From positions 1-34,147 of the IMG/VR virus record IMGVR_UViG_3300037585_003859: a stretch of DNA of 34,147 bases, one strand, 5' to 3'. Under the pieces are notes generated by a model. That model was given only the letters and a program-made list of their open reading frames with translations, had not been told where the DNA came from and made no database searches. Shown here in pieces: positions 1,706 through 29,677 of the stretch; the first letter of the stretch is position 1, and every line of letters starts with the position of its first letter. A program made the position numbers and the translations under genes. This DNA comes from a virus.

Positions 1706-1706
1706 A

Positions 1707-2369: not shown

Positions 2370-3293
2370 TTAAGCTTCTGTACCAATAACCATAAATTCA
2401 ACAATAGTAGTATTTGTTGAAGTATAAGCCATTAAATCATATGCTCCAGTTGCTGGAATATACGCAAATTGTTGTCCACGTATTTCCATAAAATTACTAC
2501 TACTGCTTACTGCAGATGAAAACGCATTAGCGTTACTATCATTCCAGTATAAGAATATCCTACCATTAACATCATGTGCGGCCGCTGTGTTCCTAATATA
2601 AATAATTGACGGATCAGCATATTCACCTTTTTTAGCAATAGTTACGTGGTTAGCTATACTGTTTGTTCCGTGACCACCATCAGTTGAAGGCGGAGTAGTT
2701 AGTATCAACGCTGCCAACGTCGTGGAGATATTCGCACTGTCTATATGAAATAATGCATTTTCCCCTGCTGTAGGGTTAGTCAATACTAAAGATTGATTAC
2801 CATCACCGCCAGAACCTGTTATAGCGGCTACAGTTATAGAAGCGTTGTGACCGTTAGCATGTTCTATAGCAGCTTTTAATGCTGTCATAATCATAGCTTG
2901 AGATACGTTCGTGTGATCCCCAGTATCTACAGCTACACCACCTATTAAGTGTGTAAGCCCTAAACCATCTGGAGTACCACTACCAATATCAGTACCTCCA
3001 GCGATTACATCTCCTGTACCTACCGTAGTTTCACTTCCGTCTACGATCACATATCGTTTTTTTAATCCGTGATTATCTGTAATATCTAAGTATTGTCCTT
3101 GATATGCTCCTGTTGTTGAATTTAAATCCCCATCTACACAAGAGATTTGCATTACTTTACTACAAGATTTTATTAATGCTCTATTTAAACCAGTAGTATG
3201 ACTACCGGTAAAAGCAGCTGTAGCAGTAAATGACATTGCATCAGTTGCTAGGTCAGTACTACTTAGTGTTAATTTTGCTGTTGTTGTTGCCAT
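2370..3293 (-). CDS. Beta-rich virion decoration or fibre-like protein
   Basis: A 307-residue, Thr/Ser/Ala/Gly-rich protein without signal peptide or TM segment. A central block (about residues 65-190) has a strand-rich GQYLDITD...YVIVDG part, a helix of the type ALKAAIEHANGH, and a SLVLTNPTAGE-type strand. The same plan (strand, A-rich helix, FILTQ/LVLTN strand) is seen in the 280-aa protein at 32655-33497. From memory, such modules are common in head-decoration and tail/fibre proteins of uncultured marine phages. Its position downstream of the giant Cys-rich gene suggests a tail or fibre accessory component. It is probably translated from the same message as its neighbours, from which it is separated by only 10-20 bases. 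Confidence 0.5.
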   Translation of the reverse strand: MATTTAKLTLSSTDLATDAMSFTATAAFTGSHTTGLNRALIKSCSKVMQISCVDGDLNSTTGAYQGQYLDITDNHGLKKRYVIVDGSETTVGTGDVIAGGTDIGSGTPDGLGLTHLIGGVAVDTGDHTNVSQAMIMTALKAAIEHANGHNASITVAAITGSGGDGNQSLVLTNPTAGENALFHIDSANISTTLAALILTTPPSTDGGHGTNSIANHVTIAKKGEYADPSIIYIRNTAAAHDVNGRIFLYWNDSNANAFSSAVSSSSNFMEIRGQQFAYIPATGAYDLMAYTSTNTTIVEFMVIGTEA

Positions 3294-3303
3294 TTTTTAT
3301 TTT

Positions 3304-3744
3304 TTAATCAATTAATAATTTTGTTAATAAACCTACTTGATGAGATTTAATTTCCTCTGGTAAGATACTTGTAGAGATTCCGATAAGTTCAAGTTCAGTT
3401 TCATCAAGAAGCATCTCTTGTACGGCTGCTAATTGAGCTTTTCTTGCCTCAACTAATTCTGGCTCTTCCGCTTCTAAAGCATCTATTTTCTTTTGAGAGT
3501 CCTCATCTTGTTGAATAGCTTTCACTTTCTCAGCAAGTTTAAGAAAAGCTTCAGACGGTTTAGCTAATTCCTCTATATCCTCTAACTCAGCTTTGATTAT
3601 GTTAATATTCTTACTAGAAATAATTGCAAACTCCTTACCTGAGAGTTCTCCTGTAGAATATAAACCGTTTAAGATTTCTACTAATTCATTTTTTGTTCCT
3701 TTAAATTTCATCTGTGTTACTGTTGTTTTTGTTTTTGTTTCCAT
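3304..3744 (-). CDS. Helical coiled-coil protein of unknown function
   Basis: A 146-residue, acidic, largely helical protein. The N-terminus (METKTKTTVTQMKFKGT) is a short strand-like segment. Residues 55-115 are Glu/Lys/Ala-rich with coiled-coil spacing, and the C-terminus (SILPEEIKSHQVGLLTKLLID) looks like a compact helix pair. There is no signal peptide and there are no cysteines. It lies between a small Cys-containing gene and a decoration-like gene. Assembly chaperones for long fibres are often small, acidic and helical and encoded next to the fibre gene; that is only a positional suggestion. Confidence 0.45.
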   Translation of the reverse strand: METKTKTTVTQMKFKGTKNELVEILNGLYSTGELSGKEFAIISSKNINIIKAELEDIEELAKPSEAFLKLAEKVKAIQQDEDSQKKIDALEAEEPELVEARKAQLAAVQEMLLDETELELIGISTSILPEEIKSHQVGLLTKLLID

Positions 3745-3780
3745 TTTTATATATTGATTTTAATTAAAATATGCCTGATA

Positions 3781-4077
3781 CTATCGACAGTTTCGGCAAT
3801 GTTGATTTGCAAAGTTAAGAAATTTATTTAAATAATCATGTGTTGCAGTACCCATATTATTTGAATACTCTAAATCACAGGGTATTAGACACGTTAAAGG
3901 TAAAGGTTTCACCTTCTTTAATATGTGTTCTATTAGCATAAACGTTACTTGCTTTAATAGAGAACAATCATCTATACGACCTGTTTCTATTTTATTTAGG
4001 AGAGCATCTCCATCGCTGGATATACATTTTCTCATTAACATATAGTTCTCTGAGTTTATATTTAAATTTGATGGCAT
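3781..4077 (-). CDS. Small Cys-containing protein of unknown function
   Basis: A 98-residue protein directly downstream of the giant gene (20 bases apart). It is mostly helical in character, has six cysteines, and ends in a CxxC pair (HCRNCR). It has no signal peptide and no TM segment. I do not recognise a family. The CxxC tail and position next to the Cys-rich giant protein make an accessory role (metal binding, folding or attachment) conceivable but unproven. Confidence 0.45.
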   Translation of the reverse strand: MPSNLNINSENYMLMRKCISSDGDALLNKIETGRIDDCSLLKQVTFMLIEHILKKVKPLPLTCLIPCDLEYSNNMGTATHDYLNKFLNFANQHCRNCR

Positions 4078-4097
4078 AGTTTTATTTTTTATTTAAG

Positions 4098-7000
4098 TTA
4101 ACCGTCTAATAAAGATTCATTACAATATTCACAGCACGATCTACATTTTAGTGTAGCTGCAGAATTATAGTTAGTAGCATTAGGATCTTTACACCCTTCT
4201 CCAGGAAGTATACAAGTACTATCATCACATGTAGCTAATTTATTATAATTGTTAGCAGCTGGATCTGTACAACCATATATACAAGGTAAACAGCATGGAG
4301 ATGAATTCCATCCTGGACTTTGATCTGGCACTGGATTTCCAAGACAATTATATAATGCATTAGCATTATAATTTACAGCAGAATCGTCTGTACATGCACA
4401 GTCAATTATCGTACTAACTGCTAATGATGTAGTAGTTGTAGGACAAGTTAAATAAGGAGTACTCGTCTCAGTATACTCAAATGAATATGTTTCATTTGCT
4501 GTAATAGGTAGTGTACTCACTATCTGTGCTGTATTAACTCCAAGAGAAGTACCAGAGATAATAACTGATCCAGTACTATCTAACCAGCTCCATGTAATAT
4601 CCGTATCAGTATTACATTCTACGGTTCCATATAATGTTGCACTATTACTACAAGCTGCTCCAGTAGTTACGGTTACTGTCTCGGTACAAGCACAGTAACC
4701 CGGATACACACATAAACTACTATCTGGCTGTTGTAAAGACGGATGTATCGTGGTGTAATTGGCTGCTGTTGAATCTGCACATACTTTCGCTTTTATAGTA
4801 GCACAGGTATCAACCCAACATTGAGTAGATTCAATGAAAGAGGTATTATTATCTATAGTTAATCTTGCTGTATAATATCCATAACTTAATCCTGTAAAGT
4901 TATGAACGATTGTTGTAGAAGTTGCAGCCGGGAATGATATTCCTGTAGATACTAAAGTTCCTGTGGAAGATGCTGCACATGCGGTAGATACTGAATATAA
5001 GGTAATAACAAAGTCATTATTTCCATTTTGAAATTCAGAAGTTTGTTGCATTAATAATCCTGTCGCACTAAGAGCAAATGAAACAGAAACTTGTCCATCT
5101 GTAGCTGTAACACTTGAAGCCGCTATTTGATTAGATCCACCAGTAGCCCATGGTGCTTGATCAACTCCGGCAGAGTTTTCATAATTACCTGTAGCTACAT
5201 CACAATACATACATGATGCATCATCTATCGTAGCTAATGCTGTAGGATTTAACGAAAGTGGATCCGTACACCCTATAACAGGGTAAATACAACAACTATG
5301 ATCTGTTCCTCCTACTACTCCAGCACAATCTCCTGTAAAAGCATCACCAAAATTACTTGCTGATAATTGTAATGTAGGATACGTAGCAGTAGAGAGTGAC
5401 CCATCATCCATACATCCATTATATGTACAAGAACCATCCTCACATGTTGCTGTTGAATCATAATTATTTGCACCACCAGAATTAATTCCAACCCCATATA
5501 AAGACAATCCTGTTACAGTAGCATAATCATAATTTACTAAATTACCCCCAATCCACCACGCTTGAGTTTTATTTCCACCATCAGTACACCCATTAATACA
5601 ATTTGTACAGCAACAATCAGTTCCAGTAAGAGCTAAAGTACTAGAGTTACAAGGCTCTGTTCCTACTAGATCTGTACAAGGACAAGTTGCATTTGAATTA
5701 TAGTTATTCCAAAACACTGAAGTATCCATACATCCGTAAACACAATCTAAACAACAAGTATTCCAAGTTCCCGATGTTAGATTATTTGTATAGTTACCGG
5801 TCCACACTCCCGCTGTAAATGTAGCTGACCCTCCACTACATGAAGACCCATTCCAAGTTCCACCATTATTAATACAACAGTCTGACTCTGTATACCAAAG
5901 TCCAATAGAACATGTTCCATGAGCAGTACAGGAAACCTCATCAAACCAATTAATAGCACTACATGTTCCTTTCTCTAGCCATTTACCATCACAATCGCAA
6001 GTAGCTGGGGGCGTTTCAGGATAATTAGAATAAGGTCCTCCTACAGCATCTGTACATCCTACATTACAATAAATACAAGAACCATCATCAATAGTTGCAA
6101 CACTATTATAATTTACAGCTAATGGATCTGTACACGCACTAATAGGAGGAATACATCCTCCATCATCACATGTAGCTAAAGGATCAAAGTTAGATGATAA
6201 TGAATTCGTACACCCAAAGACAGGAAGTATAACAGATAGTTGTGGAGAAGTAACACTACAAGAAGGTACAGTAGTTCCTCCAAATTCATGCAGAATAGTA
6301 ACGTACCAATGTCCATCTCCTTGACCAATTAAAACGGCATTAGGTATTGTATATACAGTTCCGTCTACAGGACTGTTATCAATCACCGTACTTACTCCTG
6401 TAGCAGTTGTACCATCAGTGTAATACCAAGTTATACTCAATTGAGTAGGAGGAGTAGGACATACACTAATATCAGAAGTATATGTTAGAGTAGGATAACA
6501 AGATAGTGTATAATCTAATGCTAAAGTTCCAATATCACAACAATCGTAAGTACAGGTTACTGTATTACATGTAGTAGATGCTAAATAGTTATTAGCTAAA
6601 GCATCACTACATCCGTCTATACAACAAGTCCCGTTATCACATTGCGCTGTTAGGTCATAATTTGAAGCAGTAATACCATCTCCTGCGGTACCAAATCCTG
6701 TACCTCCAGGCCCTACAGTATATTCAGTTACACCCCCGTCCATACATCCTAATACAGGTGCTACTACTGTTAATATATTAGAGTATACTGTACAGTCAGC
6801 AGTAGGAGCTGTATAATCACTTGTAAGTACCAATCTATAATTCTCTGATGTTCCACTTGTGGTATGTAAGAAACTATTAGCTAAAGTTAGTGTTGTTGCA
6901 CTTGTAGGTCCTGCACTAGTTTGAGTATCTAAAGTAACCCATGAACCAGTTGCAAAACTTTGCCATAAAGCTGTATAACCATCATCAGCGGCAGGAGTAC

Positions 7001-10000
7001 ATGATATAGCAGCTACTAAAGATTGATTACAAATTCCATTTGATAAATCTAAAGTTATTACTGGAGTATCACAACAATATGTATATGTACAAGCTACACA
7101 TTGACAAAGAGCACTTGCATCATAATTATTTGCGGTTGGATCTGTACACCCTCCTGAATCTATTATAATATTTGTTGATGCTGAGTATTGATGGCAAACA
7201 TAACCAGATAGATATGTTATTCTTGAATATGTTCTATATAATCCTGTTCCATATCCTCCAAAATTATCTGTAGAACAATTATAATGATAATTATAACTAT
7301 GAGAATCTATAGAATTAGCTGATGGATTTGGTTGGTATGTAGATGTGTGAGCTACTTGCCACACTGAACCGTCCCAATATTGTAATTCTGTTACTATCTT
7401 ATTACAATGATCAGTTGCAATCGCATTACAATCAATAAACATTCTATATTCTACATCACAACTATCTACATGGCCTGAAGCCTGTAAAAGAGTTGGAGTA
7501 CTACAACAAGGATATGTACATGAACCGTCATCTAAAGTAGCTGCTGAATTAAAGTTTAAAGCAAGATCATCCGTACATCCAGGAATTGGTATACATAATG
7601 TACAAGTAGAATAAGATACAGGAATATTTGTAAATACCCATTGTGATGGTTGACCCGTAGTATTTAAAGGATGAGTATAATACTCAGCCGTTGCTTGTGG
7701 TCCTATATACTTCCAGCAGGCTGTATTATTATTCCACGCTGTTCCATCGTACCATGACCAAAGGAATGCTTGTCCAATTGTTTCCGTTGGGTTAATATAT
7801 GTAAGACCTAATTGATTAGCAGCTAAACTTACAGGTCCTACAAAACTTCCCCCTCCAAAAGATGTTCTATCTCCACTTGTACATTCTTCCCATACATGCC
7901 ACCATAAACAACTACCATCATCAATATGAGTTGCATCTGCTAGGAAATCAAAATTAGCAGCTGTTGCATCAGTACATCCATAATATAAACAAGAACCATC
8001 ATCAATAACTGATCCTGCATCATAATTTCCAGCTGTTGCATCTGTACACCCAGTACAAGATCCATCGTCACATGTAGCGGATGCATTATAGTTACTACAA
8101 CTTGTACAATTTAGACAATCACATGATACTAAAGATGATATAGAAAAATTAATAGTAGGAAGATTTATAATACAAGCAGAAAGTCCATTAGGATATGGTA
8201 CCCATACTTCGAGTCTATATGTACCTATACCCTTAGTAGTAAAGAAGCTAGTTGCACAGGCATCTATAAAATCTAGGGTCTTTATATTAGAAGTTGCAGC
8301 AGAGATAGTAGTAGAACCAACAACTGAGTCCCAAGCTGATGTTACCGTATTCCAAAAAGTTACTTCATAAGTAATAGCGGTAAAGCCCCATGATTGTCCA
8401 GTATTACCTACATCTTCAATTACAAAACTAAATGTTTGATTACATCCTGTTAGTGATGTAGTTGCTACCATTGTTGGATTAGGGAGAATACATGAACCAT
8501 CATCAACATTAGCATTACTGTCATAATTCGTTGCACATGGATCTGTACACCCCTCAAAGAGACAGCAGCTATAATCTGAAGGTATAACGTTTCCAGAGCA
8601 ATCATTTGTGAATGCTGCATCATAATTTGAAGCATTTGCATCAGTACACCCCCAATATTCACAACTCCCATCATCTCTCGCATTTAATGGGTCCAAACTA
8701 CCGTATATATTATTTCCGTAATTATCTGCAGCAACTCCAGGTATAGGTGAAGTATATGGAGCTACCCCAACAGTAGTATACATAGTAGCAGCTGTCTGAA
8801 ATCCGTTATCTGTACATCCACATTGAGATGCAAGAATAATTGTAGGAGTAATTGTACCAGGATATGTATGTGGACTAGCTATAGATGGTAATAAACTATG
8901 AGGTTGAGGGAAGTGGCAATTTGTATCCATCCCTGGACTAGTATTAGGTACGTCAAGAGAATTCATTAACCACCCATGTGTAGTTACTGAAGCAGCTGCC
9001 GTCCTTGGATGCGCTATAATCCATGTTTCAGAATAATCTGAGAATGCAGTAGGTGAAGATGTGTATTGAGATTTAATTCTATATCTCATTAAGCAATCAA
9101 ATACTTCATCTGAACTAGTGACACCATCTGCGTGCATTTTAATGAATAGGTCTAATACTTCTTCTGATGCAATATTATTATTTATATCTCCAGTGTCATA
9201 GATCAAACTAGCCATATTTGCTGGCGTAGTTGGAGTTGCTGCTGCACTACCATAAGGACTAAAAGGAAAACCTACCGTATCTTCTATCCAAGTAGTCCCA
9301 TTATCTGTACTAAAACTTACAAAAATTAGAATCGAAGTAGCATCTTCAATAATATTTCCATTTTTATCAAGATTACAATCTGCCCAAGGAATATTCAATT
9401 GCATTAGACAAGAAGCTGCCTGACCAGACACAATAGTCCCACATCCAGCTTTCAACCAATAAGGTGTAAGTCCAAGTACTACTTGTCCAGAGTTTACTGG
9501 ACTACAGACAGGTACAAATAAACAACTACCATCATCTAAAGTAGCTGCTGAATTATAATTTGTAGCTGTAGAATCAGTACATCCCGGATATATACAGGAA
9601 CCGTCATTACAAGTAGCTGAGCCATTATAATTAGTTGCTGTTATACCTCCAGATACTGCTACTGTACATCCACAGATCACAGGATAATGCGTTGTTCCTG
9701 AAGGATTCGTTCCAGTCCCTATAGTAAATATTGTACTAAATGTTTCAATAGAGTATCCTGTTGCCCAATTCTGTACTTGTCTTATTATATAACTAGACGT
9801 ACCTCCAAGAGCAGTAAGTTCTGACAATGTACAAGATTCTTCAAGTTCAAAACCTTGACTCCCTACAACACTAGCGCCTGGTATAAGATGAGTATATGCA
9901 AGTGTAGATGTGCTAGCATTATAAGCGCCACTACTTGTACTTAAATCATATATATAAAGTGCAATAGCAGTAGTAGGATGATCTGGAGGAGTAGTTAAAG

Positions 10001-13000
10001 TACATGAAGCAGCTACTGTTAACCTCACATTACACGTTGTACTAGTTAACACAGCAGTAGGAGCACTGCAAGATGTAGGTAAATTACAACAAGTATAATC
10101 TACTCCCCCTATAACACCTACACAATCTGCATTTCCATTTGGATATACTTGTAGATAATTAGATGCATATACGTTTTGACAATCACATGTTGGTACAGGT
10201 GGTACAACAAGTCCTACACCAGTAAGATCAGGACAAGGATCTAAACCTGATCCAGAAGCTGTTTGATCATTCGTATAAGTAGACTTAATAGCATACGTTC
10301 CCCCATATAATGCAGCATTCCCAGAAATAGTACTTCCGAACGCTACAGACCCAGTAGTAACATAAGCTCCAGTTATAAGAGGAAACTGTCCTACTAATAC
10401 TTGAATTCCTTGACCAGGCCCGTCAGCAGGAGTAAAATAAAGCTCACACTCTATATCAGTCACTTCATCCGTAGCAGCACAATCATAAGAGGCACTAATG
10501 GTATGAGTTACCGAGCATCCTGATCCTGTTACAGTAAGAATAGGTATTACTGGAGCACAACAGTCACATTTAATCGCTGGATTAACAAATCTGTTATTTG
10601 CATCTGATACAACAACTGAGTCCCTTGTTTGATGTGTATCACATGTTTGAACCCTATAATTAAAGTGTAGGTCTTGAAAACATATAGATATATTATTTTT
10701 GATTGTCTCATTACCAGCATTAGAAGCGCTCCGTCCCATAATTTGAGAAGTATCTAAACCTAGCTTATTTACAGCTAAATCTACAGCTCTAACTCTCAGT
10801 TTATAATGTCCGTATGTAAGATCATTTCCATTAGCGTCTGTATAAATTGACATATAACTATTAAACAGATTAATTCCCGGTTGAACACCGCTTTGAAAAG
10901 AATTGGTTTGGGTTTTCCATTCACCGCCTTCAAAACCTCCCATTATTATTACACCTTTCTCTAAACCAGTTGATCCAGGTAATTGAACCTCATCCCAACC
11001 TCCAGCGTAGGTCCAGCCATTCGTGCCCCAGTACCCGCATGGGGCTTGCCAATGTGGATAACCATTCGTCGTAGTGGGGTCACAAGCCCAATTTCCATTA
11101 CCATTATACTTATAAAGTTGTAGATGTATTTGTAGATCATCTATACGAGAACTACTTATACTAGAAGTATCCCCAGCTAAGAAAGCTGATAGGACCTCCT
11201 CATACCATTGAAATCTAATATTTATTACACCAGGCCATAGACTACTAATAGCATATCCTTGGAAATGGTCTGGCGATAACTTCGAAGGATGATTAATCAT
11301 AAGAGCTTCCATTTTGTACCAAGTAAGTCCTCCAAGAGTTGAAGGGTCTAATACATTAGGAGCATGAGTATAGTTTCCTATAGTCCTTGCTCCATTTGCC
11401 TCTAGTATATCACCTGTTCCCTCAACTATCTCAGAATGATCTACGTCTGGATCAATAGGCCCCGCACTAGAGACAGGACGTGGATTCGTCTTGTAAAACT
11501 TATATGCTATCTTATAAGGATTGGTAGTGTAATTACCTGAATCGGCAGCTGATACTCCAAAATGTTCAGGATCCTCATCTCCTTTATCCCACATATCAAT
11601 TTCTAATTTACCTGTTGATCTATTACATACAACACAAGATCCATCATCAAACATACGATGTGGAGTTACACCAGCTAATTGCCAGTATGCACCTAGATTC
11701 ATCCATTCACCAAGGTGATTATAAGTAAGTGCACCTGGAATTGGTACCTCTTGTCTATTAATTGCGTGCATCTGCCACCTATCAGGACCGTACAGAGGAA
11801 TAGTAGTTTTCCATCTACATGCTTTTGGAACTTCAGGAGGTAAACATACAGGACAATCTTTGTGATAATAAATAGCATCTTCAAAGACTAGTCCTGACTC
11901 TGCAGCCTCTGTTAATTCTCCTGCTTCCCCTATTCCAACTGGAAGTGCTGGTGTTGTATGTATATTAGTCCCTGGTGCACCTGTTGTTTTCCGTATTGAT
12001 GTAATTAAATCATCGTAGTGATTAGAAGTCCCTAAAGTAGACCTTGTACCAGTAATTACATTTATCACTTTTGAAGAATTTGCATTAGCCCAAGTCTCAG
12101 TTATATTTGTAATAGCACTTCTATATATTAATTCTCCAGTAAATCCTCCCAGAACCATTCCACAAGTCAAGATACCATCAGGAGCATACTCTATAATAGA
12201 TAATGCACGTGAGAAATTTACCATGCTCGTTGTCGAATGATCATGCCTAGTCCCTTCATAAAGATTAATAGCTATGGGAAAAGGTGCAGTTACTCCTTCA
12301 TATACTGGATAAGGATAAGTAGGAGATTGGGTAGGCATAGCTTCTACCTTCCAATAGTGTTGTGACTGATGAAAATTATCAAGTACAGAATGTGATGGCT
12401 TAGGTGGGCAATTTACATTGCTAGGGTTACACCAGGTCACTAAATGCAAATTCCTTTCCGAATAAGGATTTGCTCCTCCATAATATTGGTTGTCAGCGTC
12501 AAGAGTTATGGCTATAGGATTGAAGGGAGTTTGGTGATGTCCTCCAGCATGATATAAACTATTAGTAGGTGGCCACATCTCCTTCATACAAGGTGTATTC
12601 ATTGCGAGTCCCCACCATCCCCAGGCGGAACCATTCATGAATGGATACCCACTTACTATTGGGGTATTTATATCAAAAGTTTTTGTAAATCCTGACTCCC
12701 AAGTTACTTTAATATTCATTACTTCGCTAGGCCATAAATAATTAGGTGAGTCTGGATTTGAATTATAATAATTCCACCCATCCCCATTTGGATCTGTAAT
12801 ATTTGGACTTATAAATGTACTTCTCCATATATTCCAATCTGGTCTCCCAATAGGATCGTTTTGAGGTACAGGAGTATTAGGTAATACAGGAGCCTGTCTA
12901 GCAAAAGTTGTATTAGCTACGTTATTCCCATAAGGAATTGCTGTAACATCCTCTATAGTAGCAATTGGATCAAAACCTTCCCAAGTATGAATTCCCGTAC

Positions 13001-16000
13001 TATTAGCACCATAAGTATTTATACATCCATCTTCTGTACTATAAGCAGGAGCATCAACTGTTGTAATATCGGTTCCTGCAACATTTGTTACTTGACCATT
13101 GTCAAGACATCGTCCATGATTACAGTTATCAAATGTATATGTATGAGGTACAAAAGGAGGAGTAGTATTATTAGGGTTATGGCCACCTACGCCACCAGTC
13201 GCGCCAAATCCACGATGCGGAACGGCAGCTCGTCTAGTATCTACAACTTGAACCTGGAATCTACCCATAATTGATTGCATATTCATAACCATAGCTATCG
13301 GCCTTGCAGGAATTGGATTTGTAGCACTTACGCTTATAGGATATTCGAACCAACATTGCTCAACTTCGTGTGTTCCTCCCGGAGCTATTACATTAATAGA
13401 CCATTTAATACTATAGTCCCCTTTAGGTACTAATAAAGGTACTGGATATGTAGTACTACTAAATGTAACTGTTGGAGTCTCTAATTCATCTTGGATTCCT
13501 CCTGCTACGATATATGAATCAGGATCTTGCCATCCATTTACTGCTCCCATAGTATTATCAGGTGTAGCTTTAAGAGGATCATATGTTACGCCTCCATATA
13601 TTGGAACTCTGTATAATACGGCTTTATATTTATAAGTTACACTAGAAAAATCAAAAGCTAATTCAAAGAGTAAACTTTTAACTACAGTCATTGTTATAAC
13701 TCCATCCCCCCAATTTGCATATGTAGCAGGTGTAACAGAAGAAGATACATACTCAAAAGCCTGTCCTGCATCACCCTGTAGAGTAGCATCTTCTAAGTAA
13801 CTTTCAATGTTTCCAGTCATCTTATCACAGAATAAACATGTTGAATCCTCTGCTTTCCGAACGAGATAAGTTGATGGTGTAATGGGTAATGCAGTAGGGA
13901 TATAATTTAAAGCAAGTGGCATAGTACAAGTACTAAGACCTGATTTATCCTCATTATGTACATCACTTATTTGGAACTTAGATAAACCTGCCTCATCAAC
14001 TTCATGAGGTACACCTCCTAATTGTAGGCCACAAGAAAATGGACTATATTCATACATCCAAGTCTGTCCATCCACTCCGCCATGATTTACATCATTTGCA
14101 AAATATATATTATGAGATTGTGCCATGAATAGTGAAGAGGGTATATTTCTGAACGTTATAATGCTACTATTACCCCAATATAATCGACGAGTTATTGTTA
14201 GTCCTCCACCATCATCCGAAGCCCAATGTTGTTTAGAACTACTGTCTAATGCAGGAGTAAAAGCATTAGATGAGTTCCACCCATTATAGATTTCTGTATT
14301 CCAATCTCTAACGGCAATATGATACCATCCTTCTCCACTAACGCAGTCATTATCTACACATGTACCGTCTGCATTTCTTAATTTTTGATGTACTGAACTA
14401 CTAGGAAATTGATCATACGTACCAATATTATATGATGGTACAGCTCCCGTATCGAGAATCGTAGGATCAAAATTAGATACATATTCTATTCTATTTAAAA
14501 GTTGTAGTCTTCCTTCAGTAGCATGTGGCGCATAGTCATCTGTGGAGTGATAAAATGGAGGACAATCTGCCCCTTCTCCTGAACATGGATGATTAGAAGT
14601 TCCAGTTACAAAAGCAGTAGATGCTTTATTAAAAGTATATATATTAAGATGATCACTTATACGTAATGAGTCTAAACCTTGTGCAGCCTCCAGTCTATAT
14701 GTAAATCCAGTAGAGGCTATTCCTACTGTTGTATTAATTTGAGAAAGTAACCCAGGATTAGAAAAGTTACTCTGATTATATGTAAGCCATTCAGGGTACA
14801 GGAACATTGGTTTAAAATCAGGAAGTGTTATATCTACATCTCCTTGTAATACAGGCCAACTACCACTCCCTATAGTACCGTCCCATTGACTCATATTATA
14901 TGGTTCTAAATTAACTAGAACTGTTCCGTTTAGATCTCCAGCAGAATCTCCTGCATCATAATCTGATGCAATTATAAATCCAAAATCTAACTGCTCCCCC
15001 CTATTAACCCAAAAGTCGTTTGCTATATCATGCGCAGCGTATTTATCCTCAATATCAAATAGTCCGTAATACATCGGACTCTCAGGAGTCGCAATTCCGG
15101 AAATAACCTGGTTCGCCGCAGCTATGTCAGTAAACCTACTAAGTTCGCCCGGGTTTAAACGATGTATACTACTAGAATTAGTTGCTGAACTCCCTAATGT
15201 CCAATTCGCAGAAGATACACCAGATGGATTTAAATTGATATGTCTTTGTCTATAAGTAGGAGAAAGATCATTATTTCCAGGATGTTCATAAAACTTACCA
15301 GTAATAAATTGTCGATATGTAGCCCACTGATTGGCCCAATCGTATTCTTTTACACCAACTTTAAATGTTTCAGAGTAGGGACTATTATAGTAGAAAAGGC
15401 CCGCTCCAGTATCCCAGTCTAAAATGCGGCCAGGCCAAGTATATGAAACTTCTGCTATTTTACCAGCATCTCCATCAAAGTACATACGTTCCCTAGTCGC
15501 AACGAAAGATTTTGACGGATTCTTTACACCCGCAGTACCAATATTGTATAACTTAACACTCCTATCAAACATTTTTGGTAAAGTGTAAATTACATCTCCA
15601 GCATTTGTAATAGCTAAAACTGGCTGAGTTTCAAAAAAACATTTAGCAGAACATCTTGGAGCAGAGTCAACCCAATTTAGTGCTAATTCTGCACTTGCTC
15701 CGTGAACAGGATCAGAAGATTGACATCCACAAGCACCAGCAGCTTCTAGATCAACTTTTTCTCCTGCAGAGGTCCCAATAGTTATAAGTAAAGCATTAGA
15801 AAATTGTTCGCAAATATCACTAGAATATATATCCCATATTTCTGCCCTTATTCTATAATATCCAGTTCCATTTTTTTGGAAAGGACTTCCGGAATTAGGG
15901 GAAAAGCCCTGTATCCCCTCGGTGGTCAGATCTCCTATCTGGAACTCATAACGAGTCGGATCACATCTGTGAGTTAAATTCCAATCTCTTTCAGGATTAG

Positions 16001-16442
16001 TAGACATGAATCCGTCATTAGGTTCAACATCAGCATACTTGTACCACTTGTACATGGGATAAGAAGATTCATTAAACTGGCGAGTTTGTGGATTATAAGT
16101 TACATTGGTATCAACATAAGAATTTGGAGATCCATCTACAGAATATTGTAAATACCCAAAGAATCTATCATGGCCTGTTTGGGTAACGGCATCAACAGGA
16201 CAGTCTAATATAACTGAATAATTAGTTATACAATCTGTATTTGCAACAGGTGTAAATATACCAATGGAGTCTGTACAAGTTCCTGTTACTGGATTCCAGT
16301 TTCCATGAGTGACAGCTGGTGAAATTGCAGGATCTGGATTATTATAACAACATGATCCTTCAGTAACCCAAGGACCAATATCACATGTACCATGTGTAGT
16401 AGACTCTGAAAATGTTATAGAAGTACATAGAGGACATGCCAT
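4098..16442 (-). CDS. Giant 4114-aa Cys-rich modular protein, putative fibre/adhesin
   Basis: One uninterrupted frame of 12.3 kb, more than a third of the window. There is no signal peptide (it begins MACPLCTSITF), which argues for incorporation into the virion rather than Sec export. Residues 1 to ~1955 are Trp-, Tyr-, Pro- and Gly-rich and mostly non-repetitive, apart from two CxxC[DN]xxTG insertions near residues 868 and 1600. From ~1957 to the end, beta-rich domains of roughly 90-130 residues, often opening with CC or CxC and a TP or AP pair, alternate with about twenty GCxD...NY...DDGSC Cys repeats. An HGTCxIGxWxTExxCC module occurs near residue 18 and again near 3510. Upstream are a Cys-rich 169-aa gene and a strong terminator. 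Family knowledge: such repeats occur in secreted Bacteroidetes adhesin-like proteins. Inferred: receptor-binding tail fibre or capsid adhesin. No enzymatic motif was seen. Confidence 0.8.
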   Translation of the reverse strand: MACPLCTSITFSESTTHGTCDIGPWVTEGSCCYNNPDPAISPAVTHGNWNPVTGTCTDSIGIFTPVANTDCITNYSVILDCPVDAVTQTGHDRFFGYLQYSVDGSPNSYVDTNVTYNPQTRQFNESSYPMYKWYKYADVEPNDGFMSTNPERDWNLTHRCDPTRYEFQIGDLTTEGIQGFSPNSGSPFQKNGTGYYRIRAEIWDIYSSDICEQFSNALLITIGTSAGEKVDLEAAGACGCQSSDPVHGASAELALNWVDSAPRCSAKCFFETQPVLAITNAGDVIYTLPKMFDRSVKLYNIGTAGVKNPSKSFVATRERMYFDGDAGKIAEVSYTWPGRILDWDTGAGLFYYNSPYSETFKVGVKEYDWANQWATYRQFITGKFYEHPGNNDLSPTYRQRHINLNPSGVSSANWTLGSSATNSSSIHRLNPGELSRFTDIAAANQVISGIATPESPMYYGLFDIEDKYAAHDIANDFWVNRGEQLDFGFIIASDYDAGDSAGDLNGTVLVNLEPYNMSQWDGTIGSGSWPVLQGDVDITLPDFKPMFLYPEWLTYNQSNFSNPGLLSQINTTVGIASTGFTYRLEAAQGLDSLRISDHLNIYTFNKASTAFVTGTSNHPCSGEGADCPPFYHSTDDYAPHATEGRLQLLNRIEYVSNFDPTILDTGAVPSYNIGTYDQFPSSSVHQKLRNADGTCVDNDCVSGEGWYHIAVRDWNTEIYNGWNSSNAFTPALDSSSKQHWASDDGGGLTITRRLYWGNSSIITFRNIPSSLFMAQSHNIYFANDVNHGGVDGQTWMYEYSPFSCGLQLGGVPHEVDEAGLSKFQISDVHNEDKSGLSTCTMPLALNYIPTALPITPSTYLVRKAEDSTCLFCDKMTGNIESYLEDATLQGDAGQAFEYVSSSVTPATYANWGDGVITMTVVKSLLFELAFDFSSVTYKYKAVLYRVPIYGGVTYDPLKATPDNTMGAVNGWQDPDSYIVAGGIQDELETPTVTFSSTTYPVPLLVPKGDYSIKWSINVIAPGGTHEVEQCWFEYPISVSATNPIPARPIAMVMNMQSIMGRFQVQVVDTRRAAVPHRGFGATGGVGGHNPNNTTPPFVPHTYTFDNCNHGRCLDNGQVTNVAGTDITTVDAPAYSTEDGCINTYGANSTGIHTWEGFDPIATIEDVTAIPYGNNVANTTFARQAPVLPNTPVPQNDPIGRPDWNIWRSTFISPNITDPNGDGWNYYNSNPDSPNYLWPSEVMNIKVTWESGFTKTFDINTPIVSGYPFMNGSAWGWWGLAMNTPCMKEMWPPTNSLYHAGGHHQTPFNPIAITLDADNQYYGGANPYSERNLHLVTWCNPSNVNCPPKPSHSVLDNFHQSQHYWKVEAMPTQSPTYPYPVYEGVTAPFPIAINLYEGTRHDHSTTSMVNFSRALSIIEYAPDGILTCGMVLGGFTGELIYRSAITNITETWANANSSKVINVITGTRSTLGTSNHYDDLITSIRKTTGAPGTNIHTTPALPVGIGEAGELTEAAESGLVFEDAIYYHKDCPVCLPPEVPKACRWKTTIPLYGPDRWQMHAINRQEVPIPGALTYNHLGEWMNLGAYWQLAGVTPHRMFDDGSCVVCNRSTGKLEIDMWDKGDEDPEHFGVSAADSGNYTTNPYKIAYKFYKTNPRPVSSAGPIDPDVDHSEIVEGTGDILEANGARTIGNYTHAPNVLDPSTLGGLTWYKMEALMINHPSKLSPDHFQGYAISSLWPGVINIRFQWYEEVLSAFLAGDTSSISSSRIDDLQIHLQLYKYNGNGNWACDPTTTNGYPHWQAPCGYWGTNGWTYAGGWDEVQLPGSTGLEKGVIIMGGFEGGEWKTQTNSFQSGVQPGINLFNSYMSIYTDANGNDLTYGHYKLRVRAVDLAVNKLGLDTSQIMGRSASNAGNETIKNNISICFQDLHFNYRVQTCDTHQTRDSVVVSDANNRFVNPAIKCDCCAPVIPILTVTGSGCSVTHTISASYDCAATDEVTDIECELYFTPADGPGQGIQVLVGQFPLITGAYVTTGSVAFGSTISGNAALYGGTYAIKSTYTNDQTASGSGLDPCPDLTGVGLVVPPVPTCDCQNVYASNYLQVYPNGNADCVGVIGGVDYTCCNLPTSCSAPTAVLTSTTCNVRLTVAASCTLTTPPDHPTTAIALYIYDLSTSSGAYNASTSTLAYTHLIPGASVVGSQGFELEESCTLSELTALGGTSSYIIRQVQNWATGYSIETFSTIFTIGTGTNPSGTTHYPVICGCTVAVSGGITATNYNGSATCNDGSCIYPGCTDSTATNYNSAATLDDGSCLFVPVCSPVNSGQVVLGLTPYWLKAGCGTIVSGQAASCLMQLNIPWADCNLDKNGNIIEDATSILIFVSFSTDNGTTWIEDTVGFPFSPYGSAAATPTTPANMASLIYDTGDINNNIASEEVLDLFIKMHADGVTSSDEVFDCLMRYRIKSQYTSSPTAFSDYSETWIIAHPRTAAASVTTHGWLMNSLDVPNTSPGMDTNCHFPQPHSLLPSIASPHTYPGTITPTIILASQCGCTDNGFQTAATMYTTVGVAPYTSPIPGVAADNYGNNIYGSLDPLNARDDGSCEYWGCTDANASNYDAAFTNDCSGNVIPSDYSCCLFEGCTDPCATNYDSNANVDDGSCILPNPTMVATTSLTGCNQTFSFVIEDVGNTGQSWGFTAITYEVTFWNTVTSAWDSVVGSTTISAATSNIKTLDFIDACATSFFTTKGIGTYRLEVWVPYPNGLSACIINLPTINFSISSLVSCDCLNCTSCSNYNASATCDDGSCTGCTDATAGNYDAGSVIDDGSCLYYGCTDATAANFDFLADATHIDDGSCLWWHVWEECTSGDRTSFGGGSFVGPVSLAANQLGLTYINPTETIGQAFLWSWYDGTAWNNNTACWKYIGPQATAEYYTHPLNTTGQPSQWVFTNIPVSYSTCTLCIPIPGCTDDLALNFNSAATLDDGSCTYPCCSTPTLLQASGHVDSCDVEYRMFIDCNAIATDHCNKIVTELQYWDGSVWQVAHTSTYQPNPSANSIDSHSYNYHYNCSTDNFGGYGTGLYRTYSRITYLSGYVCHQYSASTNIIIDSGGCTDPTANNYDASALCQCVACTYTYCCDTPVITLDLSNGICNQSLVAAISCTPAADDGYTALWQSFATGSWVTLDTQTSAGPTSATTLTLANSFLHTTSGTSENYRLVLTSDYTAPTADCTVYSNILTVVAPVLGCMDGGVTEYTVGPGGTGFGTAGDGITASNYDLTAQCDNGTCCIDGCSDALANNYLASTTCNTVTCTYDCCDIGTLALDYTLSCYPTLTYTSDISVCPTPPTQLSITWYYTDGTTATGVSTVIDNSPVDGTVYTIPNAVLIGQGDGHWYVTILHEFGGTTVPSCSVTSPQLSVILPVFGCTNSLSSNFDPLATCDDGGCIPPISACTDPLAVNYNSVATIDDGSCIYCNVGCTDAVGGPYSNYPETPPATCDCDGKWLEKGTCSAINWFDEVSCTAHGTCSIGLWYTESDCCINNGGTWNGSSCSGGSATFTAGVWTGNYTNNLTSGTWNTCCLDCVYGCMDTSVFWNNYNSNATCPCTDLVGTEPCNSSTLALTGTDCCCTNCINGCTDGGNKTQAWWIGGNLVNYDYATVTGLSLYGVGINSGGANNYDSTATCEDGSCTYNGCMDDGSLSTATYPTLQLSASNFGDAFTGDCAGVVGGTDHSCCIYPVIGCTDPLSLNPTALATIDDASCMYCDVATGNYENSAGVDQAPWATGGSNQIAASSVTATDGQVSVSFALSATGLLMQQTSEFQNGNNDFVITLYSVSTACAASSTGTLVSTGISFPAATSTTIVHNFTGLSYGYYTARLTIDNNTSFIESTQCWVDTCATIKAKVCADSTAANYTTIHPSLQQPDSSLCVYPGYCACTETVTVTTGAACSNSATLYGTVECNTDTDITWSWLDSTGSVIISGTSLGVNTAQIVSTLPITANETYSFEYTETSTPYLTCPTTTTSLAVSTIIDCACTDDSAVNYNANALYNCLGNPVPDQSPGWNSSPCCLPCIYGCTDPAANNYNKLATCDDSTCILPGEGCKDPNATNYNSAATLKCRSCCEYCNESLLDG
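4120..9700 (-). repeat. Dispersed GCxD...DDGSC repeats in the giant gene
   Basis: About twenty diverged copies encode a ~21-residue unit (GC[TM]D, then NY or NF, then DDGSC or CDDGSC). On the plus strand they are marked by GTACATCC or GTACACCC and, nearer the unit's C-terminal end, by a Cys/Ser/Asp-rich ACAACTACCATCATC-like stretch. Examples lie near 4200, 4270, 5260, 6125, 6205, 7570, 7965, 8035, 8540 and 9565. Spacing varies because beta-rich domains are inserted between copies. The copies differ at many codons, so they are not a recent amplification. Confidence 0.8.
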
Positions 16443-16455: not shown

Positions 16456-16965
16456 TTAACAATCACATCCACAGGTACTATCACACATTTCTTTTGCTTT
16501 AAGGTATTTATCATATGCTCCTTTAATGTATCCAACATTAGCTAGATCATACAATCCAGCGTCTGTACTTGCAGAGTTCAAAAGTAATAAAATTTTAGTA
16601 GCTCTAGCCATAGTTGCTGAACATTTTGGACAATCACACGAACATCCCATTAATTCTTCTGCCATTGCTGCTAAACAACAATCTATATCACAACCCGCTA
16701 CTACTCCAACAGCGTCTACTGCTGTTGCTCCCGAGCCTGCGTTTTGTAGAAATTCAATAGTATATACCCCGTTCCCTGGAATTGTCATAACTACATTCAT
16801 ATAACCTCCTACTGGAACCCCAGTTACTGTTTGTGTTACTGTAGAATATGTACCACTATAGTCTATTAATCGTATAGTATCTCCAGTAGAGGCTCCAAGC
16901 ATTGTGTCAGTAACTTTTACTGTAACACTGCTACAATTAGAAATAAGATTTGTTTGTAAAGCCAT
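16456..16965 (-). CDS. Cys-rich virion-associated protein, putative adaptor to giant fibre
   Basis: A 169-residue protein in two parts. Residues 1-90 are beta-rich (VTVKVTDTMLGASTGDTIRL and GNGVYTIEFLQNA). Residues 91-169 are helical with clustered cysteines at 92, 96, 97, 108, 110, 112 and 115 and a C-terminal CDSTCGCDC. The Cys clusters bracket two helices and look like metal sites or disulfide staples. The gene ends 13 bases before the giant gene and is the first gene after the terminator at 16979-17021, so the pair probably shares a message. I recall similar CC...CxCxCPxC proteins in marine phage structural regions but cannot name a family. An adaptor or chaperone for the giant protein is an inference from position and shared Cys richness. 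Confidence 0.55.
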   Translation of the reverse strand: MALQTNLISNCSSVTVKVTDTMLGASTGDTIRLIDYSGTYSTVTQTVTGVPVGGYMNVVMTIPGNGVYTIEFLQNAGSGATAVDAVGVVAGCDIDCCLAAMAEELMGCSCDCPKCSATMARATKILLLLNSASTDAGLYDLANVGYIKGAYDKYLKAKEMCDSTCGCDC

Positions 16966-17035: not shown

Positions 17036-17953
17036 TTAAGAAAGTGTAACTAGTGGTCCTGCTCCTAAAGTGGACGCTAAGTATCCTCCCATTACATCTT
17101 CAAATCCTGTACCACCTGCACTAGGCCAAGTTGATGCACCATTTGGAACTGCTACATATAATTCATGCATATTATCTACTTTATTAATTTGTCCATCCTT
17201 ATGACGAGATTTCCAAGTTATATTATATATATCCATTCTTGTTCCAGCTACTGCATATGTTGTAGTTGCATCTGGCTGTTGTACTCTATAATAATCTCCT
17301 TTACCACTTCCTAATAAACTTTTTTCAAAGTCTGCAAATAGAAAACTATCTCCTAAATTAGACGTTGCTGCAGTATATGTAGGAGTTGCAGTTAAAGTTG
17401 CATCACTATCATTGTCAAAAGCTATAACGATATTAGATTGTTTATTATATCCTGTTGCTGAAGGTCCTGCATAAGTGTGCGTTGTTAAAACACAATTAGC
17501 ATTTGAACCACTAACTGACGCTATCATACCTTTGTATCCTGTTGCTGCTATATGTGCTGCTGCTGCAGTTCTTGCGTTAGCTCCATTAGTATTAGCTACA
17601 GTACTACTTGTGAATTCAAAACTCTCTCTTACATAAGGCTCAGATCCTGTAGCTTGATCAATTACTTTAACAGTTACTGTTTTACCTGCTGTTGTACCCG
17701 TACTAAATGCAATTGATACCGAATTAGCAGTTTGTGCTATTCCTGCTGCCCCTGTATACTTTACTATATCTGCTCCTGGAATCCAAGGTGAACATATAGA
17801 ACCATTTCTACAAATTTTAAGCTCTGGTGCTGTTATTAAAGTGTCCGTTTTTAACAACAATGCTGGTGCACCGGTTGCTGCTGTTTTTTTATAGATAATT
17901 ATGCCGGTAGCTGTTGCTGCAGCTACATCTGCTCCAATTATTAATTGTCTCAT
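17036..17953 (-). CDS. Beta-rich virion structural protein
   Basis: A 305-residue, Ala/Thr/Gly-rich protein with alternating strand-forming segments. These include VSIAFSTGTTAGKTVTVKV, an Ala-rich helix near RTAAAAHIAATGYKG, and a less repetitive C-terminal part with ITWKSRHKDGQINKVDNMHE. There is no signal peptide and there are no TM segments. It is the last gene before the terminator at 16979-17021 and follows the connector/ring-like gene by 24 bases. Placement after capsid and connector genes suggests a tail or head-tail junction protein, or a decoration protein. I cannot assign it to tube, hub or decoration from sequence alone. Confidence 0.55.
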   Translation of the reverse strand: MRQLIIGADVAAATATGIIIYKKTAATGAPALLLKTDTLITAPELKICRNGSICSPWIPGADIVKYTGAAGIAQTANSVSIAFSTGTTAGKTVTVKVIDQATGSEPYVRESFEFTSSTVANTNGANARTAAAAHIAATGYKGMIASVSGSNANCVLTTHTYAGPSATGYNKQSNIVIAFDNDSDATLTATPTYTAATSNLGDSFLFADFEKSLLGSGKGDYYRVQQPDATTTYAVAGTRMDIYNITWKSRHKDGQINKVDNMHELYVAVPNGASTWPSAGGTGFEDVMGGYLASTLGAGPLVTLS

Positions 17954-17977: not shown

Positions 17978-19099
17978 TTACTCGTTTTTATTTGCCTCAG
18001 TTTCATGAGATGCATATCTCGGGTCTGCAATAGACTCTAAAATGCTACTCACGGCCATGTCCACAATCTCTCTATGAGAATGGTCGGGCAGTTCACAACT
18101 AATCCCCAAAGATAGTGAAATTTGGAGAGGGTTTCTTAAATATGTTAATTTTACACTATCTATTATAAATATATCATTAGTGTATATGTCCATTAAATTT
18201 TGACGCATTGTATAAATAGGTGCGGTATATTTTGTTGTATTAAAAGGATCTTTTAACATGCTAAAAATATCATCTTGTTGTACAAACTTTGAAGCATGTG
18301 ATTCTAATTTTAAACTTATGGATGTAGCTGGAACTCTCTTTTCTGAATATGCTACATTTGTTTTTCTTAGAGGAGATGTAGATATGTGTACACCATTTGC
18401 ATCTTCTCCAACTATCATTGCAGTTGATAAAGCATTAGTGATTAAAGGATATTGTGCAGAATCAATTATAATAATAATTTCATCTGGATAACTTAGATGT
18501 CCTATTGCCTCCCAATTAAAAATTGCTCCTGTAGTTCCTGATGCTAGTATCTCTCCTTGTGCCGCCACTACTCCTGTAGGATATGTATGTGAATTTGAAT
18601 TTGTCCATAAAGTATAACTTGTAGATGAAGGATCCGTAGGATCAACTATCATTTTTAAATTTTGAATAAGTGATGTGTTTTCATTAGTTACAAATCCATT
18701 CATACTTACTCGGAAATAAAAGTAATCAGAAGGATAACTATTTGTCCAAGACATAGGTTCACACTTATCTATATAAACACGTGACACACTATTAATTAAA
18801 TACATATAATCGTCAGGAAGTCTGAAACTATCTACATGTATATTATTAAATAATTGTTCTTTATAAGTTGTTATATCCTCATATTCTGATACAAGTATTC
18901 TTAAATCGTCTATACGTTTCTGATTTCCTTCAAATCCTAATTGATACTTATTATTAAGTCCGTATTTAAGATTAATAAATTTAGCTTGTGCTTTATTTAA
19001 TTCTAAGTCTATTTCTTCAGGTAAAAGCAAATCGGCTTGGAGTGAATTTATTTTATCCACTCCTTGCCCAATTGCTAAATGCATTTCAGTTACATTCAT
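17978..19099 (-). CDS. Head-tail connector/ring-like structural protein
   Basis: A 373-residue protein beginning MNVTEMHLAIGQGVDKIN, then LLPEEIDLELNKAQAKFIN, an amphipathic helical opening followed by RLPDDYMYLINSVSRVYID and a strand-rich middle. From family memory, an N-terminal helix pair of this kind followed by a LPDDY or LP.dYl element is typical of ring or connector proteins in crAss-like and other Bacteroidetes podoviruses, where they stack below the portal. The C-terminal part returns to helix (REIVDMAVSSILESIADPRY), also usual for connectors. It is two bases from the preceding coiled-coil gene. A connector or tail-ring role is likely; the exact ring is not assignable. Confidence 0.6.
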   Translation of the reverse strand: MNVTEMHLAIGQGVDKINSLQADLLLPEEIDLELNKAQAKFINLKYGLNNKYQLGFEGNQKRIDDLRILVSEYEDITTYKEQLFNNIHVDSFRLPDDYMYLINSVSRVYIDKCEPMSWTNSYPSDYFYFRVSMNGFVTNENTSLIQNLKMIVDPTDPSSTSYTLWTNSNSHTYPTGVVAAQGEILASGTTGAIFNWEAIGHLSYPDEIIIIIDSAQYPLITNALSTAMIVGEDANGVHISTSPLRKTNVAYSEKRVPATSISLKLESHASKFVQQDDIFSMLKDPFNTTKYTAPIYTMRQNLMDIYTNDIFIIDSVKLTYLRNPLQISLSLGISCELPDHSHREIVDMAVSSILESIADPRYASHETEANKNE

Positions 19100-20563: not shown

Positions 20564-22003
20564 CTACGAAGCTGTACAAGTTATATCAAGCGAAGTATCA
20601 AATCTTTTTAAGATAATACCTGCTGTTTTTAACATATGTACAGACGCCCCATCTACATCAGATGCTCTAGAAGAACTTGAATCAAATCCTCTAGGAACTA
20701 CTGAACCAGCTACACACCATCTCATAGACTCACGACCTTTTTTATTGATCATTTGTAAGTTATTTTGACCGTCATAATTTGACTGATCAACAAATACCAT
20801 TCTATAAGACTCTAGTGAATAACCTGTAACAGGGTGTTTTGCACGAGCTTGTGCAACTGGACCATGATCAAATAATGGTAATTTTACCACATTCACTGTA
20901 TGTCCATCTACATGCTCGTAAGATGTAAAGTAACCACTCATACCTAATGATCTACCAGATCCAGTGATGAAACGATTCTCTCCTCCAATTTTCCAGTTAC
21001 CTGCACCACCACTAGCGAAATGAGATTTAAGAGCCTCATCAAATTCTCTAGCACCACCAGTACCAGTATAAAGAGTTACTTGTTTTTGTGAAGCATCAGT
21101 CATACCATAGAATAAGTCACCAATAATATTTTTGATTTTATTCTCTGTTAAAGTAGAATAAGTATCTTTATTGATAATTTGCTCGAAAAGACCAGGACCA
21201 ACAACTACTGGCTGTCCGTTCTCATCATTCATTAAAGTTTGACCTGCTGAATCATAAGTTTTTTGTCCGTACCAGTAATACATTTCACACTCTTCTTTAA
21301 AGTTAAGCATGTGTGTGTATTCCTCATAGTCCATCCAAAGTTTTGTAGTTTTACCACCTTTAGTAGGTAAAGTAAATTCTGCTACAAAATCTTTAGCATT
21401 TCCAGACATATGGTAAGATTTTCTGATTGTTCCAATCTTGTTTCTTACTTTTCCTGGAGTTTCCCAATTTGAAGCATTACCTCTAGAGAAGTCTACTCCT
21501 ACTGGTGCATATAAGGAAGCCCAAAGATCTCCTACATCTACACCGTTGGTTAAAGTTGCTGTTAAATCAGGATTAACAAGTCTACATGTATATTCATAAT
21601 TTCCACCAACTAATACTGGCTCATTCATGATTCTAACTTGTTCTCCCGCTGAATTAATTAATACATAAGGAAATACGAAGTGTTTATCTGGAAAGGTCAA
21701 CGTAAATGTTGCTCCTCCAGCACCTGCTCCTGATGCTGCTCCTGCTATTGCAATTGGACGCGTCTTCAACGTATGAGTTTTCACACGATACTCATACTCT
21801 AGTCTGTCAATAGACTTAGTGTTCCCTACACCTTCTGTTAAGAAAGATAATGGAAAACGCTTATCGTCTTTTCCTGCCAAGTGAGTGATTATCGGTGATA
21901 ATTCTGTTGGACGAGCCAATAGCGCGTTTGACAAACTGTTCATGTCTGTCATTTGTGCATCATTATAATATGTTTTCTGCACGCTAATGTTTGTTCCGCT
22001 CAT
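20564..22003 (-). CDS. Major capsid protein (putative)
   Basis: A 479-residue soluble protein immediately downstream of the scaffold, the usual place of the HK97-fold major capsid protein. It begins MSGTNISVQKTYYNDAQM, then has a FPLSFLTEGVGNTKSID segment and long alternating helix/strand regions without low complexity. Codons are comparatively rich in common forms, and an A-rich sequence (AATAATAAAAAA) precedes the ATG, which suits high expression. Length fits capsid proteins of crAss-like phages as I remember them. The assignment rests on order (portal, 605-aa protein, scaffold, this gene), size and composition, not on a recognised motif. Confidence 0.7.
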   Translation of the reverse strand: MSGTNISVQKTYYNDAQMTDMNSLSNALLARPTELSPIITHLAGKDDKRFPLSFLTEGVGNTKSIDRLEYEYRVKTHTLKTRPIAIAGAASGAGAGGATFTLTFPDKHFVFPYVLINSAGEQVRIMNEPVLVGGNYEYTCRLVNPDLTATLTNGVDVGDLWASLYAPVGVDFSRGNASNWETPGKVRNKIGTIRKSYHMSGNAKDFVAEFTLPTKGGKTTKLWMDYEEYTHMLNFKEECEMYYWYGQKTYDSAGQTLMNDENGQPVVVGPGLFEQIINKDTYSTLTENKIKNIIGDLFYGMTDASQKQVTLYTGTGGAREFDEALKSHFASGGAGNWKIGGENRFITGSGRSLGMSGYFTSYEHVDGHTVNVVKLPLFDHGPVAQARAKHPVTGYSLESYRMVFVDQSNYDGQNNLQMINKKGRESMRWCVAGSVVPRGFDSSSSRASDVDGASVHMLKTAGIILKRFDTSLDITCTAS

Positions 22004-29460: not shown

Positions 29461-29677
29461 ATTCCTCCAACTCAATGAAATGGTCTATTATATGATCTAC
29501 TTCCTCATCGCTTATATTTTCATGTAAAAAAGGATTAAAAGGTAAAGGGAAGTCTAAGTCTTCATCACTTTCCTCCATTTCAATATAAACATCATCCAAT
29601 GATATTTTACCTGTTATAACATTATAAGCATTTTCCATCGCTGTATTATATAATTCTAAATCCTCTAAGAAATCCAT
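29402..29677 (-). CDS. Small acidic protein upstream of terminase
   Basis: A 91-residue, very acidic helical protein (YIEMEESDEDLDFPLPFNP, then helices ending KCQELLECKKN). Its ATG overlaps the stop of the preceding gene (TAATG), and its 3' end overlaps the start of terL. No family is recognised. Being acidic, small and adjacent to terL, it could be a packaging accessory, but nothing in the sequence shows DNA binding. Confidence 0.5.
   Translation of the reverse strand: MDFLEDLELYNTAMENAYNVITGKISLDDVYIEMEESDEDLDFPLPFNPFLHENISDEEVDHIIDHFIELEEYEKCQELLECKKNTDAKEH

Follow-up and report, generated by a model that had tools for sequence, protein, structure and literature searches.

The window analysed here is the whole of record IMGVR_UViG_3300037585_003859, a virus contig of 34,147 bases from IMG/VR. 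The record is a fragment of a marine crassvirus, a relative of the gut crAss phages, and carries the following genes of the structural block and its surroundings.

27454..29475, minus strand: terminase large subunit (TerL; PHROG 6681, E 4e-138)
25065..27377, minus strand: portal protein (PHROG 6547, E 2e-128)
20564..22003, minus strand: major capsid protein (MCP) of crassvirus type (PHROG 11589, E 1e-85; hhalign 98.1 to crAss001 gp32)
17978..19099, minus strand: 373-aa homologue of the tail ring protein gp34/g089 (hhalign probability 96.4 to g089 and 90.1 to gp34)
17036..17953, minus strand: 305-aa protein, probable auxiliary capsid protein (gp36-like; weak hhalign match and same position)
16456..16965, minus strand: 169-aa Cys protein, first gene of a cassette (homologues, and position as for phi14:2 g087)
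4098..16442, minus strand: 4,114-aa Cys-rich modular protein, proposed virion fibre or adhesin (intact frame and relatives)
3781..4077, minus strand: 98-aa anchor protein (in most relatives its domain forms part of the large protein, close to the C-terminus)
3304..3744, minus strand: conserved 146-aa protein encoded next to the cassette on its downstream side (41 homologues among the ORFs of the fetched loci)

Membership of the Crassvirales is indicated by TerL, portal protein and MCP of crassvirus type and by a ring protein gene, that of the 373-aa protein, beside the capsid genes. The portal protein shares no more than 33 % identity with those of human-gut crassviruses and 28 % with that of Cellulophaga phage phi14:2. 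Profile comparison equated a 369-aa protein with crAss001 gp31, the MCP with gp32/g091 and a 269-aa protein with gp33/g090, while the best hhalign matches of the 305-aa protein were crAss001 gp36 and phi14:2 g088, both weak. The order MCP, gp33, ring protein, auxiliary capsid protein, 169-aa protein and giant protein is that of a crassvirus structural block, the location that had been proposed in a sequence-only reading of this DNA. For comparison, 80 related contigs were retrieved via the terminase, the large ones being 73–89 kb in length.

Two further genes of the window were recorded. Between the portal gene and the scaffold-like gene, a 605-aa protein (23248-25065, minus strand) contains a metalloprotease-like DHEIKHL motif; it was without a PHROG match, and no counterpart was found in crAss001 or phi14:2. 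At 1707-2069 (minus strand) lies a gene for a thioredoxin-fold-like protein of 120 aa. Its N-terminus is hydrophobic, it has no CxxC, and its match to TIGR01068 had an E of 1.8e-5, well under the cut-off. Look-alikes of this protein, with a hydrophobic start and a 'WASWN/NAGWN' stretch, are found in the same region of three related loci (L106, L110 and L111).

The giant gene and its three-gene cassette

The giant protein is encoded by a single ATG-started frame of 4,114 codons. A stop-free run of this length would arise by chance with a probability of ~1e-124 given the base composition of the frame, none of the other five frames stays open for more than 129 codons, and the GC content by codon position (45/51/17 %) is coding-like. 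The frame is a real gene and not an assembly fusion, because collinear genes are present in two related sequences and an intact frame of similar kind in a third. In the nearest relative (G001), collinearity spans the entire giant at 35–50 % protein identity, with the homologue interrupted in that record by two 10-N gaps, and L118 is collinear over approximately the first 1,640 aa. In G024 (locus L283, G024:C1:38500-52500), a second intact giant of 3,971 aa occupies the same slot and is followed by a separate anchor gene. The protein in the window has 184 Cys residues (4.5 %), 45 of them before the midpoint of the chain and 139 after it, as against a Cys content of 0.3–0.9 % for TerL, portal protein and MCP. 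It contains 16 DDGSC-type motifs, 14 of them within aa 2086-4114. Neither a signal peptide nor a membrane segment was found by hydropathy, and no T9SS C-terminal signal (Por_Secre_tail) was found. The claim of a single intact, Cys-rich frame lacking a signal peptide is therefore borne out by stop statistics, Cys count and hydropathy.

A conserved cassette consists of the 169-aa Cys protein, a large Cys-rich protein in the following position (the slot) and a small Cys anchor. Homologues of the 169-aa protein were found in at least 138 IMG/VR stretches, with nine invariant Cys residues (C96, C97, C108, C110, C115, C161, C165, C167 and C169); a match of its profile to gingipain (PDB, E 6) was taken as chance. 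In each of the 75 loci that extended far enough downstream, the slot ORF came directly after the 169-aa homologue. Complete slot proteins (n=45) had a median length of 1,523 aa (range 171–4,114) and a Cys content of 2.8–6.8 %. In 39 of these the anchor domain was fused to the slot protein, in five it was separate and adjacent, and in one it was not found. The domain comprises ~50 residues, and a further conserved stretch comes after it: LxxCIAxxGxxYYNKLxTGxxDDCSIMNxWKxILIxYLLxxxGLDCIYNCAD ... NYLDKFINFANKFCADC. Separate anchor genes of ~98–110 aa lie directly downstream of the slot in the window, G001, G024, G026 and G021. The occurrence of the same domain in fused and in separate form suggests that slot protein and anchor act as one complex. 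No homology was found between the 169-aa protein and the anchor domain.

The window carries the cassette in full, with a 169-aa homologue upstream of the giant gene and an anchor gene adjacent to it. Co-occurrence with the 169-aa gene, which the sequence-only reading had singled out for study, was thus seen in 75 of 75 loci; the notion of a two-gene unit did not hold, since the 98-aa downstream gene belongs to it as well. In a tree built from the 169-aa protein, the long slot proteins with a separate anchor form one group, which is weakly supported (89/58). Homologues of the 146-aa neighbour occur close downstream of the cassette in many of the fetched loci.

Variant arrangements of the cassette were also observed. 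In L171 and L179 the anchor domain is part of a separate protein of ~392 aa after a slot protein of 1,729–1,927 aa, a separation that is apparently independent of the giant group. At L107:18053-19003 (G008; also L138/L139) the slot holds only a 316-aa protein with one DDGSC motif and the anchor domain; the middle part of this protein resembles a carbohydrate-binding beta-sandwich by eye and had no Pfam match.

In phi14:2, two genes come after the auxiliary capsid gene g088: first g087, coding for 186 aa, and then g086, coding for a pectate lyase of 1,275 aa. The annotation of both products as virion proteins is based on MS/MS. In the window, the place of g087 is taken by the 169-aa protein and that of g086 by the giant, so that the giant gene, lying after the auxiliary capsid gene and the 169-aa/g087 gene, has the position of the g086 tailspike. 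The equivalence is positional: g086 is a pectate-lyase tailspike, no sequence homology between it and the slot protein was found, and no pectate-lyase beta-helix domain was found in the giant with Pfam, NCBIfam or PHROGs. For the first cassette gene, comparison of the 169-aa family with g087 gave an hhalign P of ~0.02, with Cys and A-x-x-KY positions in register and the Cys-containing C-terminus of g087 roughly so; this weak match is no more than suggestive of a relationship between the two.

The position of the cassette directly after the probable auxiliary capsid gene would also suit a decoration fibre of the head, seated on the capsomers beside the auxiliary capsid protein and binding surfaces or particles in the manner of crAss001 gp21 and gp29. 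The gp29 head fibres do have an Ig-like C-terminal domain (PMC10172136), and gp21/gp29 and the tail fibre gp22 show that crassvirus virions bear appendages, in this case of 97–832 aa. However, phi14:2 has its pectate-lyase tailspike in the equivalent slot, gp21 and gp29 are only ~100–120 aa long, and no homology of the 169-aa and 98-aa proteins to gp21, gp29, gp38 or gp39 was found. A head fibre is accordingly considered unlikely, though it is the foremost of the alternatives.

Domain anatomy and divergence of the giant protein

The giant protein was divided into the following parts.

13863..16442, minus strand: N-terminal part, aa 1-860, present only in the nearest relatives G001 and L117/L118
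13323..13850, minus strand: copy of an Ig-like module, aa 865-1040, homologous to aa 3740-3870
11835..12992, minus strand: aa 1151-1536, matching the variable N-terminal domain of relatives of ~1,500 aa
4101..10187, minus strand: C-terminal repeat region, aa 2086-4114, with Ig/FN3-like domains and Cys motifs in alternation
4101..5300, minus strand: modelled part, aa 3715-4114, with two predicted beta-sandwich domains and with Cys motifs between them and on either side

The first 860 aa had only two relatives in the IMG/VR scan, and BLAST of chunks agreed with this restriction to the nearest relatives. The Ig-like module at aa 865-1040 aligned with aa 3740-3870 over 140 columns (hhalign probability 90.5) and was also hit by a profile of the slot family of ~1,500 aa (iE 3e-7). 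The match of aa 1151-1536 reached an iE of 1.4e-7 in hmmsearch and was weak in reverse searches. Repeat families were delimited by hhalign in aa 2086-4114, where the Cys motif takes the form GCTDxxAxNYxxxAxxDDGSC. The division into a unique N-terminal half and a repeat-rich C-terminal half made by the sequence-only reading thus stands for the repeats, and the N-terminal half proved only partly unique, given the matches at aa 865-1040 and 1151-1536.

Structure prediction in pieces, the course proposed with that reading, succeeded for one end of the protein and not for the other. AlphaFold2 modelled aa 3715-4114 with a pLDDT of 84.9 from 38 sequences, i.e. 37 relatives, and aa 228-865 with a pLDDT of 28.5 from four sequences. 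With the C-terminal model, Foldseek retrieved proteins with FN3/Ig domains in tandem. Among them were FN3 pairs of netrin receptors, the tail tip of phage lambda and part of a large bacterial adhesion protein, namely a region of tandem repeats. Among viruses, the matches were fibronectin-type and tail/fibre proteins, several of them from Virus NIOZ-UU157, which also codes for a crassvirus-type muzzle protein. Whole-query TM-scores were low and rmsd values high, as would result from multi-domain chains with differing inter-domain angles, so that the domain class is supported but no specific relative. The C-terminal 400 aa are therefore predicted to form tandem Ig/FN3-like sandwiches, the fold class of phage fibres and adhesins, which was found in this part of the protein only.

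In sequence searches the giant had no match in Pfam, PHROGs, NCBIfam or PDB sequences, and neither its C-terminal 400 aa nor the 169-aa protein matched named phage records. Matches of the C-terminal profile to perforin-2 (PDB, E 0.03) and of the N-terminal profile to a capsid protein (PDB, E 1.1) were taken as chance. An N-terminal half belonging to an enzyme family would have spoken against the structural role claimed by the sequence-only reading, and no such family was found in Pfam, NCBIfam, PHROGs or PDB sequences. These results bear on a further explanation, that the giant is an ejected or enzymatic protein comparable to the virion RNA polymerase and cargo proteins of crassviruses. Large cargo proteins are packaged by these phages (crAss001, PMC10172136), and the N-terminal fold, with the low pLDDT of aa 228-865, is without a confident model. 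The absence of matches in all four collections, the Cys-rich Ig-like repeat architecture of the C-terminal half and the location of other tail-type genes elsewhere in the relatives argue against this explanation, which is very improbable.

Cys columns were 78 % conserved as against a mean column identity of 29 %, and many Cys residues were present in every sequence covering them. Covariation of Cys residues was dropped as proof of disulfides, as ancestry confounds it. The slot protein may nevertheless contain disulfides, judging only from this conservation of Cys. Disulfide-rich modules had been called unexpected in a protein assembled in the cytoplasm, a view at odds with the crAss001 virion, in which cryo-EM located disulfides between tail-hub and ring proteins and in the portal-vertex protein gp57 (PMC10172136).

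Between the window and G001, protein identity was 91 % for TerL (compared by identity only), 88 % for MCP, 68 % for the 169-aa protein, 66 % for the anchor and 35–50 % for the giant. The dN/dS ratio was ~0.4–0.7 for the giant and ~0.15–0.26 for the MCP and the 269-aa, 373-aa and 169-aa proteins. The giant is constrained yet fast-diverging, as expected for a receptor-binding appendage. Long slot proteins of separate lineages have C-terminal modules in common but not their N-terminal halves. No reverse transcriptase (PF00078) was found in 14 related records, possibly fragments; a diversity-generating retroelement is thus not indicated, and variability driven by such an element was set aside as unsupported.

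Modules common to bacterial surface proteins and the proposed fibre

The motif GCTDxxAxNYxxxAxxDDGSC was found at more than 559 places in bacterial and archaeal genomes, mostly in Flavobacteriales. A signal-like N-terminus was present in 45 of 59 motif-bearing proteins with a complete start, and among seven such proteins scanned, the C-terminal domain was a T9SS type A sorting domain in five cases and CHU_C in one. The secreted proteins of Flavobacteriales thus carry the same Cys motif as the phage giant, whereas the giant is without signal peptide or T9SS tail. Its lack of both export signals fits assembly on cytoplasmic particles rather than export. The motif was also seen in contigs labelled as marine archaea (Poseidoniaceae and marine group III; L225, L241, L243, L259 and L273), possibly as a result of exchange or mis-binning.

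A second type of module links the slot family with surface proteins. SprB is a giant gliding adhesin of Flavobacterium, exported by the T9SS, and the SprB repeat (PF13573) is its defining repeat. Of 17 related records, six had slot proteins in which these repeats scored above the Pfam cut-off, and the 3,971-aa protein of G024 contained seven copies; none was found in the giant of the window, including its Ig-like domains. SprB and the slot protein are alike in their giant modular, adhesin-like architecture. No paper linking the DDGSC motif, or SprB repeats as a phage part, with phages was found in the open-licence literature.

At the other end of the window, 3-1481 (minus strand) codes for a secreted-looking protein that starts with MKKLLLLLLLPLTLLGQ and runs off the contig. 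It contains a CUB-like 'TFTIYDSYGDGLNG' stretch and many DDGSC motifs, and has relatives of 697 and 832 aa in L105 and L106. The motif is thus used by two kinds of protein in this phage, one that looks exported and one that does not.

Modules typical of bacterial secreted and surface proteins, together with this signal-peptide DDGSC protein of the same virus, would be in keeping with a slot protein that is not part of the virion but is expressed late and freed at lysis, coating cells or debris or excluding other phages. The slot protein itself lacks a signal peptide and a T9SS tail, however, and it has a conserved place within the structural block and two small partner genes. Such a role outside the virion is judged improbable, less so than an ejected or enzymatic protein and more so than a head fibre.

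The giant is most likely, on the features of its sequence and locus, a very long, fast-evolving virion attachment fibre. This is the best-supported explanation because the slot has the position of the phi14:2 virion tailspike, the C-terminal fold is predicted to be tandem Ig/FN3-like, divergence is fast and the modules are common to bacterial surface and secreted proteins. On these four grounds the fibre or adhesin proposed in the sequence-only reading is upheld, though not the accompanying points on a unique N-terminal half, unexpected disulfides and a two-gene unit.

We infer the virion location, orientation, receptor binding and host of the slot protein as follows. Slot proteins would be virion appendages, and the giant in the window the largest member found here. 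The protein would be synthesised in the cytoplasm, its chain consisting of Ig/FN3-like domains with short Cys motifs interspersed between them. Its C-terminal end would be attached to the particle, at the tail collar or capsid, via the small Cys anchor (98 aa here), and the 169-aa protein probably shares in this attachment. The variable N-terminal half would point outward and bind the surface of a host of Flavobacteriales type, while oxidation of the Cys motifs, either as the particle matures or once the cell has lysed, may staple the chain. Taken as a whole, this picture of a disulfide-stapled modular appendage of marine crassviruses, attached by its C-terminus and binding the host with its N-terminal half, is considered probable, with substantial room for error.

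Ig-like domains are common in phage appendages. Among crassviruses, the BACON tandem-repeat protein of crAssphage was already known to carry tandem Ig-like domains common to Bacteroidota surface proteins (PMC6949934). Both it and the slot protein are tandem Ig-like proteins of crassviruses, but the slot family belongs to another family of Ig-like domains and differs in its Cys motifs and dedicated cassette, and a BACON domain was not matched in the giant with Pfam at E values of up to 1. Judging from the searches made here, what is new is the slot family with its cassette and its Cys motif, the link of relatives to SprB, and how long the protein is. The three-gene cassette, found at no fewer than 138 IMG/VR places, allows a hypervariable appendage in marine crassviruses, one outside the coverage of PHROGs, Pfam and NCBIfam, to be defined across its whole family, and it connects the attachment of phages with modules from surface proteins of gliding Flavobacteriia. 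It also makes testable the idea that giant disulfide-stapled fibres are assembled in the reducing cytoplasm and oxidised later. A marine crassvirus fibre with a chain of up to ~4,100 residues, built from modules of host secreted proteins and gliding adhesins (DDGSC, SprB), stapled by disulfides after release and anchored through Cys, is a tentative proposal, rated as less likely than not. If true, attachment would work by mimicking or engaging the moving surface adhesins of the host.
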